Assembly: GCA_029717555.1 (NCBI GenBank)
Contig: JAMDHS010000064.1
Location: forward strand, 57,365 to 121,364
Source of the DNA: Peribolospora baueri
Taxonomy: Eukaryota; Basidiomycota; Peribolosporomycetes; Peribolosporales; Peribolosporaceae
DNA: 64,000 nt
Direction of reading: 5' to 3'
A program made the position numbers and the translations under genes. Shown here in pieces: positions 46,947 to 50,485 of this stretch (positions within the stretch are counted from its first letter, which is position 1; each line of letters opens with the position of its first letter). Below the pieces are notes generated by a model. That model was not told where the DNA came from. It worked only from the letters and a program-made list of their open reading frames with translations, and searched no databases.

Positions 46947-48416
46947 TCATAACGAAGCTGGCTGGCGCATGCCGAGGTGATGGAGGAAGGAGTGCGAGTA
47001 GCTGTGCGGCGCGGATGCGAGGGGATGCGACGGGACGGGACGACAGACGAACGGCCACGACGTTCAGCGGTGGGACACAACCGCATCGATCGGAAAGCGC
47101 AGAGACGCAGACGCAGACGCACCGCACAACCTGCTCATACGTCTTCTCAAAACCGTCCTGCACACATCACCGACCCACCGACCGACCAACCGACCGACGG
47201 GTATCGACCGCAAAGGGGGAGCCACGCAGTCCAGTCAGTCCTCCTCTCCTGCCGCTCCCATCCGTGCGACGCTCTCGACGACCGCTCACCGAGTTCGAGT
47301 AATAAGGATCTACGATCGTCCGTCCGTCGTCAAAGGCTCCGAAGAGTCGGATCGAAGCTTTGGCCTCCCGAGGCGCCACACGCTGCAATTCGCGCAGATT
47401 GTTTGTGCTTTTTTATTTTTTTTCCGTTCCCAAACGAGCGACGACGACGGAGGAGAGGAAGAAAAAGTGGTCGGTCAGGTAAGGCCGTTCGTCCTGGACC
47501 GGGGTGACGTTTGAAATCCAAGCCGCTTCATGTGCGCCCCGCACCGTACTCACTCCATCGCAAGGATCCAATCAAACTCGTCAAAGTCCTTTCGAGAAAC
47601 TTGACGTGCGACAGAGTCGATCGGGACGCCATGCTGACGTGCGAGAGGGGAACGGAAATACGAAGAGGCGGTGGAACGGTCTGTACGAGTTGTGCTCACT
47701 TCCTCCTTTCGACCCCAAGCGGCCCCTCACCTTTCGGCACGTAGCTACCGTCCTATGCGTGCACGGAGAGGGAGAGAGAATCACAGAAAGAGCGGTCAGA
47801 GGTCGATCGGGGCGAGTCGGCGGCACCCGACACCTTACCTCTCGTCTGGATCTTCGTCCTGAGTCAAATGCGAAGGGACAGACCAAAATGAAGGCGAGAA
47901 AGGAATGTCTCCTTCAGCGACGTCAAACGAACTCGAGATGAAGCCACAGCCGGCTCTCCTCAGCCCGTCTGCGACCACTCACAATGTGGTATCCAGCGGT
48001 ACCGCAACTCTCTATCCGACCGAATCGCTCCTTCAGCCCACTCCGATTTACAATGTCTCTGAACACGGCGCCCGCCACTATCGTGTCGCAACCAGCGTCA
48101 TAGGAAGACCAAGGAGGGGACGCGGACGTCTCGTCAGCGTCCCGGCGACAGTGATTTCTTCGAAAAGCTATCCGATCTGAGCTGGAAAGCACAAAGCTCG
48201 GTTTCAAGGAATCGAAGGTACCCACTGGGACTGCACGGGCCGAGTGAAAGGACGAAAATGGGCATGAGAAGCGACGACGATGCATCAGCGCTCCACGTTG
48301 CCCCGCCCACGCGAATCTCTGCCGAGCGACGCCGCTTCCTTCGCCCACCTCCTACAGATGTTGCCCAGGCAGACAAAAAGAACGTTGATGGGCTTCTCTC
48401 CCGCCATGTTCGCCAT
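46947..48416 (-). CDS. LTP1: Low-molecular-weight protein tyrosine phosphatase, nine exons
   Basis: Cysteine-based acid phosphatase removing phosphate from tyrosine. Exons on the minus strand: 48416-48349, 48230-48226 (5 nt), 48077-47983, 47858-47839 (20 nt), 47752-47731 (22 nt), 47633-47554, 47407-47290, 47157-47123, 47001-46947; exactly 165 aa plus stop, close to the family's about 157. Joined product shows the P-loop VCLGNICRSPMAGAVF (Cys16, Arg22), ESCGTAGYH, DEDPDERTVATCRKHGVPID, FDEFDWILAMD, and the general-acid motif DPYYSNS (Asp130), then GFEKTYEQVVR. The 5-nt exon 2 is needed to give the Ser-Pro-Met that follows the P-loop arginine. The 3' splice site of exon 7 follows an A-rich stretch but is the first AG after a good pyrimidine tract. 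Divergent from GID8. Confidence 0.93.
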
Positions 48417-49052: not shown

Positions 49053-50485
49053 ATGGATGGGACGTCTATAAAGACGGCGAGCGACCGGACGTCCAGCCAT
49101 GGTGAGTTGCGTCCGCCGGCGTCGCGCTCTCATCTCTCGCTTCGCTTCTCAGGCGCAGACTTGATTTCCGATCATGCCCGCCATGGCTTCCCTCATTCCC
49201 AGACGAAAAAGATCAACATCGCTCGTGCGGATTGGGAGAGGCGGCTGAACGAGGTGTCCATCAGTAAGGAGTGAGTCCGTCTTTCTTCCTTTCCCCTTTT
49301 CTTTCATGCTGTTTCGTGGCGGAAAAGGCGAAAGCGAGCGGAAGGGATGAGACAAATTTGCAGAAGTGGGAATCTCTCCTAATCGCCCTTCACCCGGGCT
49401 TGCGGATGACTTACGTTTCTTTTGCTCACTGATCCGTCGCATCGACCGTCATGTCATGTCTCGTCGTCGCCCTCGTAAACGTGCGTCTTGACGCCTTTCC
49501 ATTCCATGTGCGCTCTTTCTGATTACACAGGGACTTGAACCGACTCATCATGGACTATCTCGTCATAGAGGGCTACAAGGACGCCGCGGAGAATCTGTCC
49601 CAAGAGACCGGGCTGGGCCCGAACGTGGATCTGGAAAGCATCGAGAGCCGCATGCTTATCCGCACCGCCATCCAACGTGGAGATATTGAAGAGGCGATAG
49701 AGCGCGTCAACGAGTTAGATCCAGAGGTGAGTGCCGCGTGCGATCCGAACCGGCTCCTTGGATGGCATCGACGGGGAACCGAAACGATAGCGAGCGAGCG
49801 AGCGGACGAGGATGAGAATGTTCTATGCACCACTCTCAGACCCCTTCCGAGGGGTCGCTGATGAGACAAAACACCAACTTCAGTCTTCAAACTGAGTCCG
49901 CTCTTTGCTCCGGGAACGATCGTCGACGCGTGGACTTTTAGTTAACGAGAGACGCCTTTGCCTTATCTCTGGCCCTCGTCCTTTTTGTTGCCGCTCGACC
50001 GACTTTCTCAGATCCTCGACCTGAACCCAGCGTTGCACTTCCGTCTGCAGCAGCAACGTCTGATCGAGTTTATCCGATCCGGTGACGTTGCCTCTGCCCT
50101 CTCCTTCGCCCAGCAAGAACTGGCTCCTCGTGGGGAGGAAAATCCAGAGTTCTTAGACGAGCTCGAGCGCACGATGGCACTTTTCGCCTTTGATTCTGTC
50201 TCCCTCTCTCCGGAGGCGGGAAGCGGCAAGGCACCTACAAACATTGTCGAGCTCATGTCCCCTGCTCAGCGACTCAAGACGGCGGGAGAGCTCAACGCGG
50301 CCATCCTCAGCGCTCAGAATCAAGGCAAGGACCCCAAGCTGCCCGGGTTGCTGCAGATGATGGAGTGGGGTGAAACGCTCATGCTGGACCGCGCCGAGTT
50401 CCCTCGCCTCGATCTCAAGGGCGCGCTAGGAGTCGTCGAGGGGGCAGAGGCAGATGTCAAGGTCGAGGACACGATGGTGATCTGA
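49053..50485 (+). CDS. GID8: GID complex subunit 8 (LisH-CTLH-CRA protein)
   Basis: Scaffold subunit of the GID/CTLH ubiquitin ligase, which in yeast degrades gluconeogenic enzymes. Four exons: 49053-49101, 49153-49270, 49531-49726, 50012-50485; 278 aa. LisH is seen as DLNRLIMDYLVIEGYKDAAE, CTLH as RTAIQRGDIEEAIERVNELDPE, and CRA from FRLQQQRLIEFIRSGDV through FLDELERTMALFAFD to the C-terminus. Homology begins at about residue 42 (ARADWERRLNEV), so the first 40 residues are lineage-specific. Intron 1 (49102-49152, 51 nt) has no in-frame stop, and a TATAAA inside exon 1 leaves open that transcription starts later; exon 1 is the weakest part of the model. Confidence 0.93.

Follow-up and report, generated by a model that had tools for sequence, protein, structure and literature searches.

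How small can an internal exon be and still be used in a conserved gene? The question is raised by a tyrosine phosphatase gene in the window (the whole stretch of 64,000 nt that was analyzed, from the intron-dense basidiomycete Peribolospora baueri, whose assembly comprises 178 contigs and 22.1 Mb), where the codons of the catalytic loop appear to be interrupted by two introns only five bases apart. A low-molecular-weight tyrosine phosphatase of 165 aa is encoded on the minus strand at 48416-46947 by a complete gene with nine exons. Its coding exons measure 68, 5, 95, 20, 22, 80, 118, 35, and 55 nt, its eight introns are all GT-AG and 86-148 nt long, and the spliced frame of 498 nt stays open until the stop codon in exon 9. 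The coding part of exon 1 (48349-48416) comprises 68 nt, and its last residues are CLGNICR, with AG left over in phase 2. It is followed by intron 1 (48231-48348; 118 nt, gtgggc...gtgcag), by exon 2, the microexon TCCCA (48226-48230, 5 nt), which completes a Ser codon, encodes Pro and starts a Met codon, and by intron 2 (48078-48225; 148 nt, gtgggt...cgatag), whose donor and acceptor are both weak. In the homologue-guided spliced alignment, exon 3 (47983-48077, 95 nt) was recovered with 99 of 120 homologues, and exons 4 (47839-47858; 20 nt, DEDPDER) and 5 (47731-47752; 22 nt, TVATCRK), which are also microexons, with 108 and 120, respectively. The corresponding counts were 120 for exon 6 (47554-47633, 80 nt), 119 for exon 7 (47290-47407, 118 nt) and 93 for exon 8 (47123-47157, 35 nt); exon 9 (46947-47001, 55 nt) includes the stop codon. 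A neighboring gene on the plus strand (window 49523-50485, at least two exons) encodes LisH (PF08513, 3e-10) and CTLH (PF10607, 5.5e-22) domains, and we take it to be GID8-like.

In the current analysis, we conclude that TCCCA at 48230-48226 is very probably a genuine coding exon of 5 nt that is normally included, in the only gene of this phosphatase family found in the assembly. Exon 1 ends in TGT AGG AG ahead of its gtgggc donor, TCCCA stands between cccgtgcag and gtgggt on the minus strand, and exon 3 starts at 48077, behind cgacacgatag, with the bases TGGCGGGC (TGG CGG GC). Joining the three exons gives CLGNICRSPMAGAVF, in which TGT AGG AGT CCC ATG GCG reads C R S P M A. Inspection shows no room for the canonical junctions around TCCCA to slide. 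The five bases would supply the Ser-Pro-Met of the catalytic loop CLGNICRSPM. When exon 1 is joined to exon 3 without them, the frame shifts and a stop follows after 54 aa; retention of intron 2 likewise leads to a stop after 54 aa, and a product of either kind should be non-functional. TCCCA has features expected of a constitutive ultrashort exon: the AG and the GT on either side of it belong to introns of ordinary length (118 and 148 nt), the frame depends on it, and its skipping would destroy the product. Alternative microexons of the neuronal type have lengths that are mostly multiples of three, a pattern that the 5 nt found here do not follow. A twin intron (stwintron), in which introns are nested with zero exonic bases between them, was rejected as well: if the whole 271 nt from exon 1 to exon 3 is taken out, the frame shifts, so the five bases must stay.

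Since an exon of five bases cannot carry the exon-bridging complex that exon definition requires, introns 1 and 2 would most likely each be recognized by their own ends (intron definition) and removed one after another. The donor of exon 1 and the acceptor of the microexon outscore the sites of intron 2, which suggests that intron 1 may be removed first, joining TCCCA to exon 1; 73 coding bases would then precede the intron 2 donor. This order is made less certain by potato invertase, where the second of the introns around a 9-nt exon is removed first, according to work cited in PMC4674806. Skipping of TCCCA would require a 271-nt intron and would shift the frame. Conserved genes of this genome, 19 in number, supplied 94 introns for comparison (median 111 nt, range 69-422 nt), and only four of these were that long.

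Measured against the same 94 introns, the donor of intron 1 ranks at the 16th percentile and its acceptor at the 21st, while the donor (CCA/GTGGGT) and acceptor of intron 2 lie at the 5th and 3rd percentiles. The weak sites of intron 2 tell mildly against the microexon model. GTGGGT or GTGGGC donors are found in 5 of the 94 introns of other genes, and a G at -1 is missing in 23 of the 94. Intron 1 contains a branch-like CTGAT about 55 nt from its 3′ end, and the acceptor of the microexon is the first AG downstream of this motif. A branch-like CTGAC occurs about 56 nt from the 3′ end of intron 2, followed by one AG 4 nt away and then by the AG of the exon 3 acceptor. The presence of these motifs is weak evidence, since YTRAY is found in 54 of the 94 comparison introns.

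The weak sites of intron 2, together with the early stop at 54 aa on both skipping and intron 2 retention, would also suit a microexon that is real but regulated, with some transcripts skipping TCCCA or keeping intron 2 and being lost, so that intron 2 tunes phosphatase output. However, weak sites are not peculiar to intron 2. The exon 8 acceptor ranks at the 5th percentile and the exon 4 donor at the 9th; the acceptor of exon 7 (window 47408, minus strand; aaaaaag) sits in the A-rich stretch ggaaaaaaaataaaaaag, which lacks a pyrimidine tract, and its score is lower than that of any of the 94 comparison acceptors. Constitutive use is also in keeping with a length not divisible by three. We consider regulation of this kind unlikely, and it would refine rather than exclude a real exon included as a rule, so the probabilities of the two overlap.

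A considerably less probable alternative is that TCCCA is a chance match, and that the true transcript has a different structure, with another exon or a non-canonical intron, or that the assembly is wrong here. In favor of this reading are, besides the weak sites flanking intron 2, an apparent non-GT-AG intron in the calmodulin gene of this genome and the frequency with which equally good tiny exons arise in shuffled introns. The DNA between exons 1 and 3 was dinucleotide-shuffled 20,000 times; an exon of the form AG-5nt-GT that encodes SP[MLV] appeared in 491 of the shuffles (2.5%) and one that encodes Ser-Pro-Met in 83 (0.4%). The real alignment score was reached in 11, 11, 17, 11, and 11 of 400 shuffles with five homologue queries, all of them scored on the same 400 shuffles. 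By itself, the local match to a tiny exon is thus worth only a chance level of about 2-4% and is suggestive.

The case for the microexon becomes strong because an intact conserved enzyme is needed, and the genome context adds help. Single-intron models leading from exon 1 to exon 3 were listed with GT, GC, or AT donors within 48376-48297, with AG acceptors, or AC acceptors in combination with AT, and with introns of at least 30 nt; 256 were obtained, 72 of which keep the frame of exon 3, and none of these 72 gives RSP[MLIV]. With two introns, GT or GC donors and a middle exon spanning 0-60 nt, 407 models were in frame and stop-free, and C-x5-R-[ST]-P-[MLIV] was produced by a single one, the model with the 5-nt exon. 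The remaining 406 fail at the P-loop, where they lose residues common to all 120 homologues (the best 120 of 4,365). A protein-to-genome spliced aligner written for this purpose, with only the homologues as input, returned exactly 48230-48226 with 114, 111, and 108 of the 120 homologues at intron costs of 10, 14, and 18, respectively; at a cost of 14, another model was preferred with 9 of the 120. With the best homologue, all seven internal exons were placed exactly as modeled, and the same aligner reproduced near-complete actin, CDC42, tubulin, and protein-phosphatase genes. When the acceptor of the microexon was overwritten, the median drop in alignment score was 17 (range 0-17), and for at least one homologue the loss of this acceptor cost nothing. 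The enumeration and the homologue-guided alignment agree with the preliminary description of this DNA, which had placed a 5-nt microexon at 48226-48230 and had it restore the P-loop region; its further claim that TCCCA restores the frame is borne out by the early stop that follows when the five bases are left out. Given also that the remaining eight exons make up a gene that is intact, we regard a chance match as very unlikely.

Low-molecular-weight tyrosine phosphatases are marked by a P-loop, C-x5-R-[ST], near the N-terminus and by a DPYY-type loop that carries the general-acid Asp. Here, CLGNICRS followed by PM is present only with the microexon in frame, and IVDPYYSN is encoded in exon 7. 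The protein matches PF01451 over positions 1-144 of the 144-position profile with 148.3 bits (curated cut-off 23.2; 2.2e-43), as well as 46 distinct sequences from solved structures, and its top homologue among 4,365, from Sporobolomyces ruberrimus, is 62% identical. Within the best 120 of the 4,365 homologues, C-x5-R-S-P is present in all 120 and RSP is kept throughout, with the next residue being M in 106 and L in 14; the loop reads CLGNICRSP in 119 and CLGNIARSP in one. A search of the fungus's own 22.1-Mb assembly found the phosphatase at one place only, with no second copy. In a coarser, exon-by-exon family search of the same genome, no phosphatase match was obtained at E ≤ 0.001, an expected outcome because the exons are so short. 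On a tree of 33 selected proteins, the phosphatase of the window groups with Mixia and a JGI protein (support 95/85), a placing that is rough because Pucciniomycotina was not recovered as one group on the same tree; a basidiomycete resembling Pucciniomycotina is the likely affiliation. That the gene is instead decaying and yields no working enzyme, so that no exon need be invoked, is suggested by its weak splice sites, such as the acceptor of exon 7, but is extremely improbable in view of the 165-aa open spliced frame, the match to the whole Pfam profile, the retained catalytic residues, the 62% identity to the best homologue and the lack of a second copy in the assembly.

The 5-nt exon does not appear to be isolated in this genome. 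Exons of 20 and 22 nt lie in the same gene, and with the same aligner exons of 4-12 nt were obtained in other conserved genes. A UBC4/UBE2D-type gene (L008; G000:C93:149349-152534) has a 4-nt exon, GGCA, at 1269-1272, followed by a 19-nt exon at 1391-1409, with canonical sites. The shuffle test among these other tiny exons covered the 4-nt exon only, for which the chance level was 11 of 400 shuffles. The calmodulin gene (L031; G000:C162:67900-71300), read on the reverse complement, contains a 7-nt exon, ACCGAGG, at 1221-1227 and a 12-nt exon at 1395-1406, both near the start of the protein, and a beta-tubulin gene (L028; G000:C103:173200-177800, minus strand) has an 11-nt exon, CAACATGCAGG, that precedes the last aligned exon. 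A 5-nt exon adjoining a 45-nt intron in L020, which was dropped at 42% identity, is regarded as unreliable.

The calmodulin gene also contains an intron of 146 nt at 1904-2049 of the L031 reverse complement that begins with AT (ATGAGTGTCT) and ends with AC (GGCTCAGCAC), and only with these ends is the correct reading MSNLGEKL obtained. A rare AT-AC intron, whose donor looks ordinary in other respects, is the probable explanation. This intron was miscalled through a stop, the AT-AC fit being better, and is still counted among the 94 comparison introns.

The genes behind these comparisons were drawn from 39 stretches (L014-L052), of which 32 were aligned (L038, L039, and L048-L052 were left out); with L006-L008 this gave 35 genes, and the 19 with at least 60% query identity were kept and 16 dropped. 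Internal exon lengths were counted for 75 exons of these 19 genes and compared with the expectation from random intron placement within each gene; the phosphatase gene was excluded from the count because it had been chosen for its microexon. Internal exons of up to 30 nt are depleted about twofold, yet not forbidden (8 of 75 observed, 16 expected, P = 0.007). The shortfall of the very shortest is not significant, with 1 of 75 observed vs. 2.9 expected at up to 5 nt (P = 0.20) and 4 of 75 vs. 6.9 at up to 12 nt (P = 0.16). It is conceivable, although we hold this view only tentatively, that exons can be of practically any smallness for the spliceosome of this fungus. Core genes would then use exons of 4-12 nt constitutively (ubiquitin-conjugating enzyme, calmodulin, beta-tubulin, and tyrosine phosphatase), and very short classes would not be detectably rarer than random intron placement predicts; intron definition alone might be enough, and tiny exons might be what remains where two introns landed close together.

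The phosphatase gene shows cleanly how part of a catalytic loop would be lost to a gene finder that sets a minimum exon size, and annotation of such genomes may misframe or lose conserved proteins. Together with the 4-nt exon of UBC4 and the 7-12 nt exons of calmodulin and beta-tubulin, it suggests that this fungus could serve as a model of spliceosomal handling of exons too short to bridge.

Small exons have been described in several other systems. Among basidiomycetes, the P450 genes of Phanerochaete chrysosporium contain microexons of which the shortest reported is 6 bp (PMC1184071). They resemble the present case in having small exons within multi-exon genes; the genes themselves differ, and the exons found here are 5 nt and, in UBC4, 4 nt long. 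These two are shorter than the 6 bp of PMC1184071, the one printed fungal minimum exon size that a narrow literature search brought up, too narrow a search to call shorter fungal exons unpublished; the portions of PMC3990503 and PMC8056616 covered by it yielded nothing on the shortest fungal exons. The introduction of PMC11121469 names Schizosaccharomyces pombe as the only fungus in which microexons had been experimentally tested earlier. In Trichoderma virens, inclusion of the Xlr2 microexon differs with glucose and acts as a switch (PMC11121469). The Xlr2 microexon is likewise fungal, but it is switched, whereas the phosphatase exon is probably constitutive. In plants, MEPDB collects 2398 small internal microexons from 10 species, most of them unannotated, and stresses the class of 1-15 nt (PMC12409088); TCCCA would similarly be a very small internal exon, here in a fungus and read from DNA. 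The preliminary description had placed 5 nt near the lower limit known, a statement overtaken by the constitutive single-nucleotide exon of Arabidopsis APC11, which was demonstrated with reporter constructs (Guo and Liu, 2015; PMC4674806). For that exon, the authors propose intron definition combined with recursive, stepwise removal (PMC4674806). Like the APC11 exon, TCCCA is ultrashort, is not a multiple of three and lies between two introns, although its constitutive use is inferred. Unlike TCCCA, which has 5 nt and is deduced from the DNA of a fungus, the APC11 exon has 1 nt, belongs to a plant and was verified by reporters. Ultrashort constitutive exons are thus already known elsewhere, and the phosphatase exon would add one case of that kind.
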